A stretch of DNA of 37,338 nt, from the NCBI GenBank assembly GCA_028282325.1, contig JANQID010000082.1, positions 1 through 37,338 of the forward strand, given 5' to 3'. Shown in pieces: positions 2,549-35,051 of the stretch. The translations under genes and the position numbers were made by a program. Origin of the DNA: Chloroflexaceae bacterium (GTDB taxonomy: Bacteria; Chloroflexota; Chloroflexia; Chloroflexales; Chloroflexaceae). The stretch's first letter is position 1. The number at the start of each line of letters is the position of its first letter. Below the pieces are notes generated by a model. That model did not search any database. It was not told the origin of the DNA and saw nothing but the letters and a program-made list of their open reading frames with translations.

Positions 2549-4105
2549 CTATGGTGCAGGGGACTCGGCCGGCGTTCCGCCGGCCATCAGCAAGCCCAAA
2601 TCTTTGCGCGTGACCTCGCCGGCATGCAAGGTAGCAATGATCCGTCCACGATACAGCACCGCAATGCGATCCGACAGCGACATAATCTCGTCAAGTTCTG
2701 CCGAAACGACCAGTACGGCGGCGCCTTCATCGCGTTTGCGCACGATTTGCTGATGAATGAACTCGATCGAACCGACATCAATGCCGCGCGTCGGTTGGGA
2801 CGCAATCAGCAGCTTGATTGGCCGTGTAAACTCGCGCGCAACGATGAGCTTCTGCTGATTGCCGCCGCTCAATGAACTGACGGGAATATGCACGCTTGGC
2901 GTGCGCACGTCGAATTCCTTGACCAATTTCTGAGCGTGCTCTTGAATGGCGCGCTCATCGCTGAATACGCCGTGGGCGAATGGCTCCTGATAATACATCT
3001 CCAGCACGCTGTTATCGGTTAACGGATAGCTCGTCACCAATCCCTCGCGCTGGCGATCTTCGGGAATATGAGCGACGCCAAGCTCGCTGATTTCGCGGGG
3101 CGACGCGCCGGTGATATTGTGTCCAAGCATGCGAATGCTTCCATCAACCGGCTTTCGCAATCCAGTCAATGCGGCGACAAGCTCGGTTTGACCGTTGCCT
3201 TGAACGCCGGCGATGCCCAGGATTTCACCGGCGCGAACTTGAAAATCAACGCCGGCGACGGCTTTATGCTGCCGATCATCAAGAACCTGCAAATTCTGCA
3301 CATCAAGGACGATCGATGTAGGTCGAGCGAGCGCTTTGTCAACATGCAGCAACACATCACGCCCGACCATCATCGCCGCCAGACGTTGCTCATCGGCCTG
3401 AGCGGGCGTGGTTTCGCCGACGACCTTGCCGTCGCGCAGAACCACGATGCGATCAGCCACGGTGAGCACCTCGCGCAGCTTATGCGTGATGAAGATGATC
3501 GATTTCCCCTGATCGGTCAACGTACGCATAACTCGGAACAGGTCATCGCTTTCCTGGGGCGTCAACACGGCGGTCGGCTCGTCGAGGATCAACGTATCGG
3601 CGTTACGATACAGCGCCTTGATGATCTCAACGCGCTGTTGGGCGCCGACGGGCAGGTCGGCGATGAGTGCGCCGGGATCGACATCGAGGCCATACTGGCG
3701 TGAGATCGTGCGAATCTGCCCGATTGCTTTCTCGCGGTCGAGAAACATCCCTCCGCGCAATGCTTCGGCTCCGAGCATCACGTTCTCGGCAACGGTCATC
3801 ACCGGAATAAGCTGAAAGTGCTGATGGACCATGCCAATGCCCAGATCGATGGCTTCATGCGGGCTTTCAATACGGGCTGGCTGGCCGTTAACCAGGATCT
3901 CGCCTGCATCCTGATGGTAGAGACCATAGAGGATATTCATCAAGGTCGATTTGCCAGCGCCGTTTTCGCCAAGCAGCGCCAGAATCTCACCCTTTCGAAG
4001 CATCAACGAGACGTTATCGTTGGCAATGACGCCGGGGAAGTGTTTGGTAATGCCGCGCGCCTCAAGAACGATCATCCGCGCCTGGTCGTTGTTCGTCTCT
4101 GCCAT
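2549..4105 (-). CDS. ABC transporter ATP-binding protein, duplicated, BmpA/nucleoside (YufO/NupA-like) family
   Basis: Cytoplasmic energy subunit with two fused nucleotide-binding domains (518 residues), the arrangement of RbsA/MglA and of YufO-type nucleoside importers. Domain 1 has Walker A GENGAGKST (residues 46-54), Walker B LILDEPTAVLTPQE and a weak signature LPVGAQQRVEI, which is normal for this family. Domain 2 has a degenerate Walker A (GVQGNGQTEL), a good signature SLSGGNQQKLIVARE and the characteristic ASQPTRGIDVG block in place of a normal Walker B. Upstream ribosome-binding sequence is weak (GGCGGGT). It heads the operon with the permease; no BmpA-type lipoprotein is adjacent, so the binding protein must be elsewhere or lost. 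Confidence 0.92.
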   Translation of the reverse strand: MAETNNDQARMIVLEARGITKHFPGVIANDNVSLMLRKGEILALLGENGAGKSTLMNILYGLYHQDAGEILVNGQPARIESPHEAIDLGIGMVHQHFQLIPVMTVAENVMLGAEALRGGMFLDREKAIGQIRTISRQYGLDVDPGALIADLPVGAQQRVEIIKALYRNADTLILDEPTAVLTPQESDDLFRVMRTLTDQGKSIIFITHKLREVLTVADRIVVLRDGKVVGETTPAQADEQRLAAMMVGRDVLLHVDKALARPTSIVLDVQNLQVLDDRQHKAVAGVDFQVRAGEILGIAGVQGNGQTELVAALTGLRKPVDGSIRMLGHNITGASPREISELGVAHIPEDRQREGLVTSYPLTDNSVLEMYYQEPFAHGVFSDERAIQEHAQKLVKEFDVRTPSVHIPVSSLSGGNQQKLIVAREFTRPIKLLIASQPTRGIDVGSIEFIHQQIVRKRDEGAAVLVVSAELDEIMSLSDRIAVLYRGRIIATLHAGEVTRKDLGLLMAGGTPAESPAP

Positions 4106-4482: not shown

Positions 4483-5262
4483 ATGCCCGCACTTATTATG
4501 TATCCTGGCATTATCTACGGCCCGGTCAGATCGCGACGTTTAGGCCTGTCGCTCGGCGTAAATCTGCTGCCGGTCGGTCGCAAAATCTGCTCGTTTAACT
4601 GCGTTTATTGCGAGTGCGGCGATACCACCGAATTGATTGATCAGGCGCGCGATGAACAGGGCAGACCAACAACGTTTCCGACCATCGCGGCAGTGCAGCA
4701 AGCAATTGAGCATGCGCTCCACCGCTATCCCAACCTGGACACCATCACCTTCGCCGGTCACGGCGAGCCAACGCTGCATCCGCGCTTTCCGGAAATCGTC
4801 CAGACTGTGCGCGACATGCGGGATCGAATCCAGCCGTATGCACGCGTCGGTGTGCTCTCATCGGCGGCATTGCTGACGCGACCGCGCCCCAGGGTCGGGA
4901 TCGATCTGTGCGACCTGCGTATGATGAAGCTTGATGCCGGCGACGAAGCGACCTTCGAGGCGATTGATCGCCCGGCAGCGAATATCCGCCTCGAAACGAT
5001 CATCGCTGAACTGTCACGAATGCCGAATATTATTATTCAAACATGCCTGGTGGATAGCGATAGGGTAAACAACGTGCGCGGCGAACCCTGGGAGGCGCTG
5101 GTGAATGCAATCGATCGGATACGACCTGATCTGATCCAGCTCTATGCGGTCGATCGTCCAACGCCCGAACCGTGGGCGCGCAAAGTGCCGTGGGATGTGG
5201 TGCAGTCCCGCGCCGACGAGTTGCAAGCGCGCACCGGCGTACTGGCGGAGCCGTTCGCCTAG
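4483..5262 (+). CDS. Radical SAM protein, TYW1-like (COG0731 type)
   Basis: A 259-residue radical SAM enzyme. The cluster motif is CSFNCVYC (Cys36, Cys40, Cys43), CxxxCxxC binding a 4Fe-4S cluster used to cleave S-adenosylmethionine, followed by an extra Cys45. The glycine-rich strand after it is TFAGHGEPTLHP, and the N-terminal block YGPVRSRRLGLSLGVNLLP is characteristic of the small proteins related to wyosine-tRNA synthase TYW1 that are widespread in bacteria. The bacterial members have no agreed substrate, and I do not assign one. GAGGAT precedes the ATG at suitable distance. It stands alone, convergent with the small membrane protein gene downstream. Confidence 0.85.
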   Translation: MPALIMYPGIIYGPVRSRRLGLSLGVNLLPVGRKICSFNCVYCECGDTTELIDQARDEQGRPTTFPTIAAVQQAIEHALHRYPNLDTITFAGHGEPTLHPRFPEIVQTVRDMRDRIQPYARVGVLSSAALLTRPRPRVGIDLCDLRMMKLDAGDEATFEAIDRPAANIRLETIIAELSRMPNIIIQTCLVDSDRVNNVRGEPWEALVNAIDRIRPDLIQLYAVDRPTPEPWARKVPWDVVQSRADELQARTGVLAEPFA

Positions 5263-28748: not shown

Positions 28749-28777
28749 AGTATAACACCAGCATTTTGCCCGGTCAA
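28749..28777 (-). promoter_or_regulatory. Promoter of the LacI-family gene
   Basis: On the minus strand TTGACC (28777-28772), a 17-bp spacer and TATACT (28754-28749): 5 of 6 matches in each hexamer at ideal spacing. Start of transcription is expected near 28742, inside the palindrome. Confidence 0.7.
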
Positions 28778-28803
28778 GGCTGTGATTGTTGGGAAGATGA
28801 CGC

Positions 28804-29173
28804 ACCAAACCATACTAGATGTACCGCATACGGTCATTCTGAGCGCAGCGAAGAATCCCTGGCTTCGAGACCAAGACCCTTCCCCTTCGCTACGCTCAGG
28901 GTCAGGGTGACATGCTACCAAACAATATGGGAGACACCGCATGGGGTCATTCTGAGCGCAGCGAAGAATCTCAGATTCCCACAATGCCGAGCCCCTTCCC
29001 CTTCGCTACGCTCAGGGTCAGGGTGACATGCTACCAAACAATATGAGAGGCACCGCATACGGTCATTCTGAGCGCAGCGAAGAATCTCAGATTCCCCCAA
29101 CGCCGAGACCCTGCACTCCGCCTGCGGCTCCGTTCAGAGTGACATGCGGCCTGTTCATTATCGTTTGGTAGCG
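28804..29173 (+). repeat. Dispersed repeat, copy 3: three tandem units
   Basis: The block GGTCATTCTGAGCGCAGCGA begins at 28832, 28945 and 29061, giving units of 113 and 116 bp; each continues with family blocks CCCTTCCCCTTCGCTACGCT and CAGGGTGACATG, the third with a diverged right part. ACCAAACAATATG separates the units and the array ends in CGTTTGGTAGC (29163-29173), matching the inverted ends of copy 2. It borders the diversity-generating retroelement. Unit length and absence of unique spacers rule out CRISPR. Confidence 0.88.
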
Positions 29174-29476
29174 TCGGGCGATGGAGACGGCAGCTCGCCA
29201 GATGCGGCGGAAGAGGGGGCCGGGCAGTGAGGACCGAGCGCGCCGGACGGTCCTCCCCCCCCGCGCCTGCCGCGTGCGGTGGGAGCAAGGGTTGGAGGAT
29301 AAAGGCCGCTCAGCCCCGGACGTTCCGGCCTAGTTGGGCCGTACTTGCTCGGAGCTGAACTCGCGCTTCGGCTGAATTGCTCCAGCCGGGCCAAACCCCG
29401 CGCTCGCGCTCATTGTGGCCGCGCCGCCGGCCCGTGAGCCGGGCGGAGTACTGACCGAACCCGTCGGAGCGCGATG
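29174..29476 (-). ncRNA. Structured region downstream of DGR template repeat (likely RNA spacer)
   Basis: About 300 bp that follow the template repeat in transcription direction and contain no credible gene. It is rich in inverted repeats: CCGCC-GGC/GCC-G-GGCGG at 29424-29446, CCGGA-cgt-TCCGG at 29316-29328, and GAGGACCG/CGGTCCTC at 29229-29255 followed by a run of Cs. In the Bordetella phage system the RNA segment 3' of the template is structured and serves for cDNA priming with RT and Avd; by position and structure this stretch is the candidate equivalent. The exact RNA ends cannot be read from sequence. Confidence 0.5.
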
Positions 29477-29548
29477 GACTGGATAACCCGAAATCCCCTG
29501 TTGTTGTTCCTGTTGTTCGGGTTGTTCCTGTTACGGGCGCCGCTGCTT
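29477..29548 (-). repeat. DGR template repeat (TR)
   Basis: This 72-bp sequence, read on the minus strand, aligns without gaps to the last part of the NACHT protein gene (31233-31304). In the protein's frame it is dominated by AAC codons (8 of 24), the usual DGR design because A-to-N changes in AAC give many residues but no stop codons. All 11 differences from the variable repeat are at template adenines; the final 17 bases or more at the 3' end are unchanged, as expected for the region that fixes the homing site. It lies 67 bp downstream of avd. Confidence 0.97.
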
Positions 29549-29615: not shown

Positions 29616-29972
29616 CTACGATGGCGCGACGCCGCCCTTGCTACGCCACGCGCCCAGCAGCCGCCCGACATGCCCAATCTGTTCGGTCACGTGGGCGTAC
29701 TGGCCGGGGGAAAGCAGATGGAGATCATAGCCGAGCCGCAGATAGAGTCGCACCTTCTGCAGCTCGACGTCGGCCTGCTCCAGGCGCTTCGTCGTCTCGT
29801 CAGTCAGCGTTGCTTCGAAGATGCGCTCCTGGAAGCGCATCGCGGCCCGCACCAGTTCCTGGGTCAGCGTAAAGCGGTATTTGCGCGGCCAACCGCTGGT
29901 GTGCGGCAGAAGCCACTGCAGCAAGTCGTAGGTACGCGTGAAAATCGGCGATTGGCGGGTTGGCGTCGGCAT
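29616..29972 (-). CDS. avd: DGR accessory variability determinant Avd
   Basis: A 118-residue, basic, all-helical protein matching the Avd/bAvd family (four-helix bundle, S23-like), which forms a pentamer that binds the RT and template RNA and is needed for mutagenic cDNA synthesis. Characteristic segments are PIFTRTYDLLQWLLPHTSGWPRKYRFTLTQEL, EATLTDETTKRLEQADVELQKVRLYLRLGYDLHLLS and YAHVTEQIGHVGRLLGAWRS. The start is 6 bp after the RT stop with GAGGG before the ATG, so it is translated with the RT. The template repeat follows directly. Confidence 0.95.
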   Translation of the reverse strand: MPTPTRQSPIFTRTYDLLQWLLPHTSGWPRKYRFTLTQELVRAAMRFQERIFEATLTDETTKRLEQADVELQKVRLYLRLGYDLHLLSPGQYAHVTEQIGHVGRLLGAWRSKGGVAPS

Positions 29973-29978
29973 AGGCCC

Positions 29979-31082
29979 TCACAGTTTGAACTGCACTGCT
30001 GCTTTCGGCCGGCTCCCCCGGCGTAGCAACGGTTTGCGCAAGAGCGAGCGCCGCAGACCGAGGGTGTTACCCTGGCGCGCATGGCCGAGCCAGCCTTGCA
30101 AGCGCCGTCCGATATCGTCGAGCGTACAGCGTCCCGCCGCATACCGCGCACGCAAACGCCGGAAGCGGCGGACGAAGGCCAGCACATTGCGTCGCTTCAA
30201 CCGCAACCGGTACGGAAAGACGTGCCAGCCCAGGAAGGGTAGCCCGGTCTCGACCGGCGCAACCTGGGCCCGATTCTCGTGCAGCGTCAGGCGCAGCGTG
30301 GCCGCAAACGCAATCGCCTGCTCGCGCCAGCGGTGCAGCGTCGGCTTGTCGTCGGCGAAAAGGAGCAGGTCGTCACAGTATCGGACGTAGGCCCGGCAAC
30401 CCAGGTCTTGTTTGATGAACAGATCGAGCGGGTGCAACAGCACATTCGCCCAGAACTGGCTGGTCTGGTTGCCGATCGGCAGGCCGCGCGGGCGGTTAAC
30501 GGCAAAGAGGTCGTCGCCGGGGAAGTAGACCGGGGTATAGACCTCGATCAGTTCACCGGCGCCGCCGGCCAGGATGCGGTCGATCAGGTCGATCAGGCGC
30601 GCGTCGGCGATGTGGCGGGCAAGCAACCCGCGCAGAACGGCGTGGTCGATCGAGGGAAAGAACTCGCGCACATCGAGTTGCAGGGCATAGCGCTGGCCAC
30701 GGGCAAAGTGCTGGGCGCGCTTGAGCGCCGCATGGACGCCCTTCCCCGGTCGCGAGGCATAGCTGTCGTAGATGAAGCGTGACTCCCAGATCGGCTCGAT
30801 CAGCGCACAGAGGGCGTGATGGACGACCCGGTCGCGGAAGGGAGCTGCGCTGATCACCCGTCGTTTGCCGTTTTCCACCGCATAGAAGCGGCGGTAAGCT
30901 CCCGGCTGATAGCTCCCCGTGCGCAATTCGTCGTGCAAGCGCAGCAACTCGTCTTCGTAGCGAAACTCGAAGGCGGCCACGTCGGGGCGGCTGCGCTTGC
31001 CGCGCCGCGCCCGGCGGTAGGCTGCGAGCAGATGCTCGAAGTCGTAGATCTGGTCATAGAGCCGGCGATAGGTCTTTGGCAT
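29979..31082 (-). CDS. DGR reverse transcriptase
   Basis: A 367-residue reverse transcriptase of the diversity-generating retroelement clade. The N-terminus MPKTYRRLYDQIYDFEHLLAAYRRARRGKR is typical of DGR RTs. Polymerase motifs are LDVREFFPSID (first catalytic Asp, 137), GLPIGNQTSQFWANVLLHPLD (the DGR-type GNxxSQ motif, 203-209) and the catalytic YCDD box (235-238) in AYVRYCDDLLLF. The thumb region contains LPFLGWHVFP. There is no maturase, endonuclease or integrase domain. It copies template RNA with errors at adenines, in complex with Avd. The ATG at 31082 fits the family and has GGGAAG upstream; the frame is open to 31124. It follows the NACHT gene by 132 bp. Confidence 0.97.
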   Translation of the reverse strand: MPKTYRRLYDQIYDFEHLLAAYRRARRGKRSRPDVAAFEFRYEDELLRLHDELRTGSYQPGAYRRFYAVENGKRRVISAAPFRDRVVHHALCALIEPIWESRFIYDSYASRPGKGVHAALKRAQHFARGQRYALQLDVREFFPSIDHAVLRGLLARHIADARLIDLIDRILAGGAGELIEVYTPVYFPGDDLFAVNRPRGLPIGNQTSQFWANVLLHPLDLFIKQDLGCRAYVRYCDDLLLFADDKPTLHRWREQAIAFAATLRLTLHENRAQVAPVETGLPFLGWHVFPYRLRLKRRNVLAFVRRFRRLRARYAAGRCTLDDIGRRLQGWLGHARQGNTLGLRRSLLRKPLLRRGSRPKAAVQFKL

Positions 31083-31121: not shown

Positions 31122-31156
31122 CAAAAAAACATGCGCGGCTGGGGCTGCGCCCCAGA
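31122..31156 (-). terminator. Hairpin plus T-run between target gene and RT
   Basis: CTGGGGC and GCCCCAG (31139-31145 and 31149-31155) form a perfect 7-bp stem with a 3-nt loop. On the minus strand a run of seven Ts follows about 9 nt later (31129-31123). It lies about 60 bp after the target stop and 40 bp before the RT. It may attenuate transcription so that RT is made at lower level than the receptor, or be the inverted repeat that some DGRs carry downstream of the variable repeat. Confidence 0.45.
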
Positions 31157-31214: not shown

Positions 31215-34200
31215 TTATCTATGAGCGCGCAGGGACTGGATAACCCGAAATCCCCCGCCGTCGTACCTGCTGAACGGGTTGTTCCTGTCACGGGCGCCGC
31301 CGCATAGCTCATCTGTGCTATCGTGAAACCAGGTATAACTTAATAGCGCGATCTCGTTAGGTGTAAAGTCTTTCTGAGGTGCGATAGCAGTCACGCTCTG
31401 GTCATCAGCATATGCCGTAGAAAGCCACTCCAGCACGTTCCCGATCAGATCCTCGGCCCCGCAGACGGCTCGCCCGGCCGGGAAGCAGCCGGCGGGCGAG
31501 GGGGCGCCGACATCGGCGGCAGCGTAGTTGGCCCGCTCCGGATCGGGCGCGGCGTCGACCCAGGGATAGGGGCGCCGGTCGGTGTGGCGGGCCGCGCGTT
31601 CCCATTCGAGCGAGGTCGGCAGGCGAATCTCCCGGTCGGACGGCAGCCAGCCGCGCTTGTGGCCAATGTCGGTGAGCCAGCGACAGTAGGCCGTCGCCTC
31701 GTACCAACTCACGCCGACGACCGGCTGGGCTGGGCTGTTATAGTTTTGATTGTCCCAGAGCTGAGGAAAACGGATCTGCTCCGGCTCACTGCTTACCCAG
31801 CGTTTTCCGCCGGGCAGAATATACCTCCGCCCCTCCTCCGTCCACCAGGGCGCGTCGGGGTCGTAGCCGTCGGGGCCGTTGGCCTCCAGGAAGGCGGCGA
31901 ACTCGGCGTTGCTGACCGGATAACGCCCGATCTTGAAGGCGTACGGCAGTTCGGCCCGCTGCAGCTGCGCCGGATCGAAACGCGGCGGGCGGGGTTCCTC
32001 GTTTGTCACTTCCTCCTCGTCGCCGTCCGCAGCGTCGCCGGCTTCCTCTGCTTCCTCTGCTTCGTCGTCCTCGTCGTCTTCTTCCTTGATCCGCTCGTCG
32101 CCGAACCAGAAGGGGCCGGCGTCGACCTTGCACCAGTAGGGCTCGACCAGATTGTACTCGTCGATGCCGAAGGCGTTCCCGGTTTTGGGGTTGAGCCGGC
32201 GCGGGTCGCCCAGGCGGCCGAGGACGTGCCCGGCCTCAACCCGTGTGGCGATCGGCGTCTCGCCCCGGCGCAGGAGGTTGAGCAGTGCAGTGATCACGCC
32301 CCGCCAAGCACGCTGGGTGGCGCCGTTGCGCCCGATATCGAGCAGGCATTCGCCGGCCAGCACCACCGGCCGCCCACGGGCCTGGGGATCGGTCGGCGCC
32401 TCGAGCAGCAGCAGCAGCAGGCGCGAGGCCTCGCGCTGGGTGGCCGAGGCGATTGCCAGCCGTAACACCTCGCGCCAGCCGGAGTCAACCGCGCGGCGGT
32501 GGATCTCGGCGTCGGGGTCGTCCAGCGTGGCCGACTCGAGCAACCCGCGGGCGGCCAGGTACTCTTCGAAGGTCAGATGCAGAAAGCTGTAGCGCCGGTG
32601 GCCGCGCTCCTGGAGCAGGCCGGTCTCGCGATTGACCAGGCCGATGAAGTCGCGCGCCAGCCGCCCGGCCCGACCCCGCGGCAGCCCATCGGTCTCGACC
32701 AGGGTCTCGGCCAGCCAGCGTTCAAGATCCTGCTCCTCAACGATGCCGCCCGGATTCTCGGCATGGATGCGCAGCGCCGCCGGGCCAAGCAGGTTGACCA
32801 CGAAACGTTCGTCGAGCTTCTCTTCACCCAGGTAGACATCGATCTCGCGCCCGGAGAGCGAACGCGCCCGGTTCCAGGTCTCGGCCAGGGCCTCGACGCA
32901 GAGCCGGTAGAGATCGACGCGGCGGTCGGGCAGACGCGCGCCCTGGTTGTGGATGATCGCCAGGATCGTCAGCAGGAGCGGGTTGCGCGCCAGGTCGGCG
33001 ATATGCCCGCTGCCGAAGATCGCCTGTTCGAGATCGGCGGCGCGGTCGGCGGCCCGCTGCTCCAGCAGCGGATCGGCGCCGGTTCCGCCGGACTGGCCGG
33101 CCCGCTCGAAGGCCCGACTCCAGCGTCCGGCAAAGGCGCGGATCTGCTCGTCATCAAAGGGCGCGATCGTGGCCCGCGCAAACAGTTCGGGGTCGAGCGG
33201 CGCGTCCTCGTAGCCGGCGATGCGGCTGGTGGCCAGAAAGCGGTTGCCGGGGGCGTCCCAGGCGCGGATGAAGTCTTCCAGGCAACGCACCACCGTCAGG
33301 CGATCCTCGCGCACCTCGTCGAGCCCATCGAAGAGCAGCAGCGCCCGCCCGGCCAGCAGCGCCCGCTCGAAGAGCGGCGTATAGTCGGGCTGGTTGCGCC
33401 CGGCGAAGTAGTCGCGCAGATAGTCGAGCGGGGCCAGGTCGCGCCGACCGGGGTCGCCGCGGGCCTCGGCGAAGGCGGCCACCGGAAAGAAGATCGGCAG
33501 CCACTCGTCGCTCAGGCCGATCTCCGCGCCGGCGCGGCCCTTCGCCAGCGCCAGCATAATCACCTTGACCAGCGTGCTCTTGCCTGTGCCGGGGTCGCCC
33601 AGGATCACCAGGAAAGGCGCATCGCGCACCAGAGTTTCCAGGAGGGCGGTCTTCTGAACATCACGGCCGGCGGCATCGCCAACCGCTATATCTCCGTGCC
33701 CCGCCATGTGGATAGCATCGAGTTCACGCAGATCGTCTGGCAGCGCCAGTCGTCCGCCAGTTTTGAGGTCTACCAATCGTCCTACATGTGGGTCATACAC
33801 CCTTCGAGAAGCCGGATCATTCGCACTACTCCCGGCCACCGATCCGCGCAGCGGCACATAGACCTCTTCCAATCGCAGGCGTACAACATTCTGCACCTGA
33901 GCGATCCCGCGGAAGTCGAGGGTGGCGTAGGTTTTGGCGATGAAATCGTGGTAACTCCGGAAAAGCGCATCGAGGTCGGGCGGGGGCGTTGCCGGCAGGC
34001 TGTAGGTCGTCTGGTTGCCCAGCACGATCGTGATCGGCGCATTGCGGACGCTAGCGCCATCGACGGCCTGAATGCCGGCCTGGATGCGCGGCAGGTCGTT
34101 CATATCCTGCAACAGCGCCTCGATCCGGCGCAGGCTCGCGGCGCTATCGGCAGTGCTGGCGGCGGTAGCACGGGCGGCGGCGAGGGCATCCAGCTCGGCG

Positions 34201-34700
34201 CGGTCCAACACGATCTCGCGCAGATTATCGTCCTTCAGCAGTTCAGCCGGGAGGAAGGCCTGGAACAACATCTGCAACACCGGCTGCACCTCGTTCCAGT
34301 GCGGTGGTTGCTCGCGGCGCAGCAGGGCGGCGAAGCGCAAGTTGCGGCGATACTCGTCGAGCACCCGACCGAGATCGGGCGTGTGCCGGAAGAGCAACTC
34401 TTCGACGGCGACGGCCCGAAAGCTGCGACCTTCGGGGCTGTCGTCGGTTAGCAAACCAAGCGCCCGCTCGACCCACTCGGGTCGTCGGTCGGCGCTCCGG
34501 CGCAACTCGGCGACGGCGTCGCGCACCGCCTGATCGAAGGCCGCGGCCATCTTGCGGCGCTTGTCCAAGCCGGCCCAGGCCGCCAGCTTGGCCTTCGCCG
34601 CAGCCCAGACATCGTCGCCGACGGCTTCGGCAATCCCGCCGGCGATAGCGCCGGCAGCGGCGGTGATTGTAGCGAGGAGGGCAGTGGTGAGTGGTTCCAT
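31215..34700 (-). CDS. DGR target protein: NACHT-type NTPase with C-terminal FGE/C-type-lectin variable domain
   Basis: A 1161-residue protein. An N-terminal helical region (with an Ala/Gly-rich hydrophobic helix at about 4-26) of unknown role leads to a NACHT-type STAND NTPase: Walker A GDPGTGKST (368-376), Walker B LLLFDGLDE (454-462), FLATSRIAGYED, LARNPLLLTILAIIHN and YSFLHLTFEEYLAARGLL. A helical, HEAT-like stretch follows (about 725-840). The C-terminus (from about 855) is a formylglycine-generating-enzyme/C-type-lectin fold: AGPFWFGDE, FKIGRYPVSNAEFAAFL, QPVVGVSWYEATAYCRWL, LPTSLEWERAARH and DLIGNVLEWLSTAY, ending in GGFRVIQS. A 30-residue Asp/Glu-rich insert (about 872-903) interrupts it. 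Residues 1133-1156 are the diversified segment. ATG at 34700 has AGGA upstream; an ATG at 34748 is possible. Confidence 0.95.
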   Translation of the reverse strand: MEPLTTALLATITAAAGAIAGGIAEAVGDDVWAAAKAKLAAWAGLDKRRKMAAAFDQAVRDAVAELRRSADRRPEWVERALGLLTDDSPEGRSFRAVAVEELLFRHTPDLGRVLDEYRRNLRFAALLRREQPPHWNEVQPVLQMLFQAFLPAELLKDDNLREIVLDRAELDALAAARATAASTADSAASLRRIEALLQDMNDLPRIQAGIQAVDGASVRNAPITIVLGNQTTYSLPATPPPDLDALFRSYHDFIAKTYATLDFRGIAQVQNVVRLRLEEVYVPLRGSVAGSSANDPASRRVYDPHVGRLVDLKTGGRLALPDDLRELDAIHMAGHGDIAVGDAAGRDVQKTALLETLVRDAPFLVILGDPGTGKSTLVKVIMLALAKGRAGAEIGLSDEWLPIFFPVAAFAEARGDPGRRDLAPLDYLRDYFAGRNQPDYTPLFERALLAGRALLLFDGLDEVREDRLTVVRCLEDFIRAWDAPGNRFLATSRIAGYEDAPLDPELFARATIAPFDDEQIRAFAGRWSRAFERAGQSGGTGADPLLEQRAADRAADLEQAIFGSGHIADLARNPLLLTILAIIHNQGARLPDRRVDLYRLCVEALAETWNRARSLSGREIDVYLGEEKLDERFVVNLLGPAALRIHAENPGGIVEEQDLERWLAETLVETDGLPRGRAGRLARDFIGLVNRETGLLQERGHRRYSFLHLTFEEYLAARGLLESATLDDPDAEIHRRAVDSGWREVLRLAIASATQREASRLLLLLLEAPTDPQARGRPVVLAGECLLDIGRNGATQRAWRGVITALLNLLRRGETPIATRVEAGHVLGRLGDPRRLNPKTGNAFGIDEYNLVEPYWCKVDAGPFWFGDERIKEEDDEDDEAEEAEEAGDAADGDEEEVTNEEPRPPRFDPAQLQRAELPYAFKIGRYPVSNAEFAAFLEANGPDGYDPDAPWWTEEGRRYILPGGKRWVSSEPEQIRFPQLWDNQNYNSPAQPVVGVSWYEATAYCRWLTDIGHKRGWLPSDREIRLPTSLEWERAARHTDRRPYPWVDAAPDPERANYAAADVGAPSPAGCFPAGRAVCGAEDLIGNVLEWLSTAYADDQSVTAIAPQKDFTPNEIALLSYTWFHDSTDELCGGARDRNNPFSRYDGGGFRVIQSLRAHR
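31233..31304 (-). repeat. DGR variable repeat (VR)
   Basis: The 72 bp encode residues 1133-1156 of the target protein. Compared with the template, 11 of 24 template adenines are changed: seven to G and four to T on the coding strand. Template AAC codons have become GAC, TTC, AGC, TAC, GAC and GGC, two AGC codons became TGC and GGC, and AGG became GGG. No other base differs. The unchanged 3' part encodes GFRVIQS, the structural end of the lectin-type fold. The gene continues only six codons past the repeat. Confidence 0.97.
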
Positions 34701-35051
34701 CAGGTCAGTCCTGGCCAGCTTCTGAGCGAAAGAGGAAGCAATGTTCATCAAGGGGCAGGCGAGATGTTCCGGCTATGGGTTCGGCGGCGGCGATATGTTT
34801 GGCTGATATTTCGCGCTGCTTAAACGGTAAAGTAGTAGCCTTCTAACCCGCAAGATCTCTCAATATCATTGCAGCCAACGCTTCCGCGACGGGATTCTTG
34901 ACTGCTAGCGCCAGCCGTAGTATATCACGCTGAAATGCAGGTTACAAGCTTCAATTGTGATCAGAGAACGCATATTACAGAGTGACACGGCTGAACGTAC
35001 GGTCTGCCAACATAACGAGAGGCATCGGCAAGATTCGGATGAACGGCGCGA
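34701..35051 (-). other. Upstream region of the DGR operon, 351 bp
   Basis: This contains the leader and promoter of the DGR operon (separate entry) and is less GC-rich than its neighbours. If transcription starts near 34911, the untranslated leader is about 210 nt, long enough to hold regulatory structure, but I see no riboswitch or strong stem. No gene is supported here. Confidence 0.5.
34919..34947 (-). promoter_or_regulatory. Candidate promoter of the DGR operon
   Basis: On the minus strand TTGTAA (34947-34942, 4 of 6), a 17-bp spacer and TATACT (34924-34919, 5 of 6). It is the best promoter-like pair upstream of the NACHT gene. Confidence 0.45.

Follow-up and report, generated by a model that had tools for sequence, protein, structure and literature searches.

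A cellular DGR with a NACHT-FGE target gene in a Chloroflexaceae bacterium

The window analysed here, a stretch of 37,338 nucleotides that forms contig 49 of the draft genome (4.6 Mb, 140 contigs) of a Chloroflexaceae bacterium, carries a pair of closely similar repeats, TR and VR, which raises the question of whether the differences between them were made by mutagenic retrohoming and, if so, which protein is being diversified. The locus is very probably a complete cellular DGR, in which mutagenic retrohoming diversifies the lectin domain of a NACHT/STAND target that itself probably senses an invader. Every part is on the minus strand, the target coming first, followed by RT, Avd and TR:

31215..34751, minus strand: target gene, read from TTG, a putative start, with Pfam NACHT and FGE-sulfatase domains
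about 33117-33611, minus strand: NACHT domain of the target (Pfam NACHT, 4.1e-14)
about 31239-31970, minus strand: FGE-sulfatase/C-type-lectin domain of the target (Pfam FGE-sulfatase, 4.3e-35; fold matches)
31233..31304, minus strand: VR, with 11 of 11 differences from TR at template adenines
31233..31255, minus strand: invariant 3' segment of VR (IMH-like), identical to TR 29476-29498 (23 bases)
31232, minus strand: VR side of the TR-A/VR-C step, C in VR and A in TR (29475)
31139..31155, minus strand: terminator-like hairpin, a 7-bp GC stem with a GCA loop followed by a T-run, about 77 nt 3' of VR
29979..31082, minus strand: DGR RT, from ATG (reading frame open from TTG at 31124), with motifs PIGNQTSQ and YCDD (RVT_1, 9.5e-18)
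29616..29972, minus strand: Avd (NCBIfam NF033474, 90.5 bits, cut-off 80; Pfam bAvd, 1.3e-17)
29476..29547, minus strand: TR, by gap-free alignment to VR
29308..29475, minus strand: structured RNA 3' of TR (z -3.4; covariation), a probable spacer RNA for RT-Avd

The two repeats align over 72 bases without gaps and, as the earlier note had described, all 11 differences are at template adenines of the coding strand, seven being A-to-G and four A-to-T in the coding orientation, while template C, G and T carry no substitution. The coordinates given there for VR are correct, and those for TR (29477-29548) are one base too high, the aligned TR being 29476-29547 (offset 1757). TR has 24 adenines, the last three of which, located in GGGGATTTCGGGTTATCCAGTCC of the 3' segment, are indeed unchanged in VR; random placement of 11 differences over 72 bases would put all of them on these 24 adenines with P = 8.3e-7. 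The claimed absence of gaps and of A-to-C changes holds within the 72 bases and ends there, as the very next template base, the adenine at 29475, corresponds to a C in VR (31232), and a one-base indel comes after it. A search of the genome with the invariant 3' segment returned TR, VR and one site with three mismatches; no copy of TR besides VR was found in the contigs of the genome, nor was a second VR for this TR. The A-only differences, the invariant 3' segment, the BPP-1-type RT, the Avd and the position of VR at the 3' end of an FGE/lectin domain together support mutagenic retrohoming, the origin that had been proposed from the repeat pair.

VR lies within the last 30 codons of the target gene, which stops 18 bases beyond VR. 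The N-terminus of the target is helical, and a Pfam search of the protein gives NACHT and a C-terminal FGE-sulfatase domain. A Pfam scan of the N-terminus revealed no known effector domain, so the downstream response of the target is a guess, and PADLOC assigned no named NACHT system to it. The fold predicted for the last 279 amino acids (19 aligned homologues, mean pLDDT 74, moderate confidence) matches the structures of EgtB, PvdO and FGE, and the C-terminal domain is predicted, with moderate confidence, to have a C-type-lectin-type fold. Among nine related targets that were scanned, FGE was present in all nine and Pfam NACHT (E < 0.001) in eight, two of these eight being below the curated cut-off. 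The closest clade has SYTWF or a similar sequence in place of the usual RGGSW motif ahead of VR, and its TR is short and starts after this altered motif.

The best match of the RT among all solved chains is the BPP-1 bRT (8ub7, E 2.3e-45), aligned through PIGxxTSQ and YxDD. The Avd scores above its curated cut-off, and its direct structure matches, PDB 4dwl and 8ub7_B (Bbp7/Avd), are weak. The same DGR anatomy occurs in many relatives.

Compared with shuffled sequences, the region 3' of TR folds better, forming an outer helix that starts directly behind TR, an AGTAAT-type internal-loop stem, a hairpin and a long branched stem. In a thin alignment of five sequences from five genera, from which the structure itself was derived, the helices of 29308-29475 keep their pairing through two-sided changes in 20 of 35 pairs (one set) and in 9 of 26 (core set), counts that exceed those of all shuffles and, by a wide margin, those of slid structures. 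A covariance model (R1) gave strong matches in five genera, which are the loci used to build it, plus their copies in a second collection; the core model gave no further strong match among 61 genomes, and weak matches were located at the TR 3' ends of the second DGR of this genome (L031), L061 and L064. A phylum-wide family of RNA behind TR is only suggested by these matches, and Rfam contains no family matching this RNA. In BPP-1, cDNA synthesis is primed by the folded spacer that follows TR, which also recruits bRT-Avd (PMC12875486), and the RNA of the window is probably the counterpart of that spacer. Further along, at 28758-29102, a 116-bp repeat is present in three tandem copies (60-93% alike), which contain TCATTCTGAGCGCAGCGAAGAATC and end about 370 bases from TR.

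By analogy with BPP-1, the TR transcript with its flanking structured RNA would be bound by RT-Avd and reverse transcribed, RT-Avd misincorporating opposite template adenines. The mutated cDNA would then replace VR at the 3' end of the NACHT-FGE/C-type-lectin gene, from the TR-A/VR-C mark upstream; a start upstream of this mark would leave TR intact and VR still a target. In this way a handful of residues would be rewritten in the lectin domain that binds the ligand; the protein carrying this domain, a STAND (NLR-like) protein, probably detects an invader and sets off a response via its N-terminus.

A DGR that was once active and has since fallen silent, leaving only the marks of past retrohoming, would look similar, and decay is indeed seen nearby. 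In Chloroflexales bacterium ZM16-3 (L035, 8001-12143) an RT 84% identical to that of the window has a NACHT-FGE gene immediately after it, and a TR pair, the RNA element and an Avd reading frame were not found at the locus, whose cassette looks decayed or rearranged. The genome studied here also has a 43-residue RT fragment (G000:C73:26523-26648), a probable relic of a third DGR; an FGE-domain gene (29708-30580) lies some 3 kb away. In the window, however, RT, Avd, target, TR and RNA are intact, and the catalytic motifs and covarying helices are retained, which makes a silenced element unlikely.

A second DGR of the same genome has an RT 53% identical to that of the window and a TR of its own; of its two VR-like matches, one lies close to a contig end (repeats at L031 (G000:C54) 3119-3179 and 4914-4974, and at G000:C53:84569-84646). 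Several FGE genes of the genome also stop at contig ends, and such positions of VR and FGE genes suggest that the assembly breaks at shared VRs. It might be argued from the 140-contig draft and from the contig-end VR of the second DGR that the window VR is an assembly consensus of strain variants, the exact 11 positions being partly an artefact. This VR, though, is internal to a 37-kb contig, its frame is open and its pattern is A-only, a specificity that mixed variants could not produce, and such an artefact is accordingly very improbable.

Adenine specificity was compared over 40 loci of GTDB genomes that encode a related RT and over Avd loci from 61 genomes, collections that have some genomes in common, so that the loci are partly non-independent. 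The search was for ungapped repeats with mismatches confined to one template base, and yielded 53 A-only pairs (equivalent to T on the other strand) in 41 loci against two C-only or G-only pairs in a single locus; since it admits only one kind of mismatch, the evidence is the contrast between the bases and not the matches themselves. Repeat pairs that differ only at C of one strand occur at a single locus, L066.

For the error spectrum, only adenines 5' of the GFR motif were counted, in 49 pairs. The 530 changes of the lineage comprise 44% T, 44% G and 11% C, with A-to-T (236) about as frequent as A-to-G (235). Finding no A-to-C among the 11 changes of the window has P of about 0.22 at a rate of 13%, and 0.01 if the three outcomes were equal; thus the absence of A-to-C, considered as a possible surprising feature of the pair, was rejected as such, being expected from the rarity of this change lineage-wide. 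The second adenine of AAC codons became C in only 8 of 241 cases in the lineage, and these codons turn mostly into Y, D, G, L, F, S and V. In Escherichia coli, the BPP-1 bRT shows 26.8% G misincorporation opposite A in the NAC context (PMC12875486). As the compared VRs have already passed selection, the rarity of A-to-C could reflect either enzyme bias or a choice of residues. A pair of merely diverged repeat copies, shaped by another adenine-directed process such as a deaminase or by ordinary mutation and selection, deserves almost no credence: A-to-G is the commonest change in the window pair, as a deaminase would give, but A-to-T makes up 4 of its 11 changes and equals A-to-G across the lineage, C, G and T are unchanged between the repeats, and DGR genes adjoin them.

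The edges of the repeats differ from their interior. The 5'-most difference (TR 29547 A, VR 31304 T) codes for Cys, and at this edge each of the five closest-clade VRs (window, L034 twice, L036 and L068) carries T opposite a template adenine. Because five independent draws would rarely agree, this A-to-T change is probably a fixed edge difference; all 11 adenines listed earlier as changed do differ from TR, but the randomised sites in the window would then number 10.

At the 3' end, 23 identical bases are followed by the TR-A/VR-C difference and an indel, which constitute an IMH-type feature: beyond the limit TR reads ATC and VR CTGC (one-base indel), and then GCGCTC is common to both. Of 35 Chloroflexota pairs that could be scored, 26 have TR A/VR C as their first mismatch after the invariant segment, a step that reads GGATGA/GGCTGG in Ktedonobacterales, and in L034 the identity of TR and VR resumes for six bases past the step. 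This prevalence is seen even though A-to-C is the rarest change inside VR. At the equivalent position in BPP-1, the direction of transfer is set by 21 bp that include five mismatches (PMC3240598), and the TR-A/VR-C step would, by analogy, be the mark that protects TR from overwriting and keeps VR from the role of a template. A BPP-1-type hairpin or cruciform is absent within about 24-35 bp behind the IMH, the nearest inverted repeat of at least 6 bp being at 77 nt.

With the BPP-1 DGR (mtd-avd-TR-brt), the window element shares A-only mutagenesis, an invariant 3' segment with a TR/VR mismatch after it, and a structured RNA 3' of TR; its RT and Avd are homologues of those in the solved bRT-Avd complex. 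It differs in its order (target-RT-Avd-TR), its cellular NACHT-FGE target, its TR of 72 nt, the lack of a hairpin directly behind VR, and the rarity of A-to-C in its lineage, as seen at the second adenine of AAC, against the NAC figure cited above. It is possible, although rather doubtful, that Chloroflexota cellular DGRs share three lineage-wide rules: a covarying RNA scaffold behind TR, a fixed TR-A/VR-C start mark, and a suppression of A-to-C even in AAC, unlike BPP-1. That these rules are without counterpart in Rfam or the compared literature is an equally tentative proposal.

DGRs diversifying NACHT/STAND-CLec proteins are known from multicellular bacteria, including filamentous Chloroflexi (Doré et al. 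2024, PMC10907252), and DGR FGE domains have been linked to conflict systems (Kaur et al. 2020, PMC7159879); it is from this literature that activity in the host and an immune role may be presumed for the window element. A literature search for Roseiflexus DGRs gave no result. By target architecture, the element resembles the clade 5D-type DGRs of Doré et al. in its NACHT STAND NTPase with a C-terminal FGE/CLec domain carrying VR, in an N-terminal extension without a known domain, in the presence of more than one DGR per genome, and in the multicellular or filamentous hosts, Chloroflexi among them; in contrast, it has one target with one VR, and no adaptor or peptidase gene was recognised nearby. 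With the FGS/FGE effectors of the ternary conflict systems of Kaur et al. it has in common an FGE domain that is diversified by a DGR and belongs to a conflict protein presumed to be NTPase-dependent, whereas no vWA-MoxR-VMAP genes were recognised alongside and the target is a single NACHT protein. The window element is a further case of a published type of DGR, and the by-products of the comparison carry modest novelty.

The locus provides a clean example of a bacterium that can alter the sequence of an NLR-like protein at its sensor end, and the lineage is suited to testing the idea of hypermutable bacterial immune receptors. The RNA behind TR, the A/C mark and the error spectrum constitute testable rules for cellular DGRs beyond the phage model.
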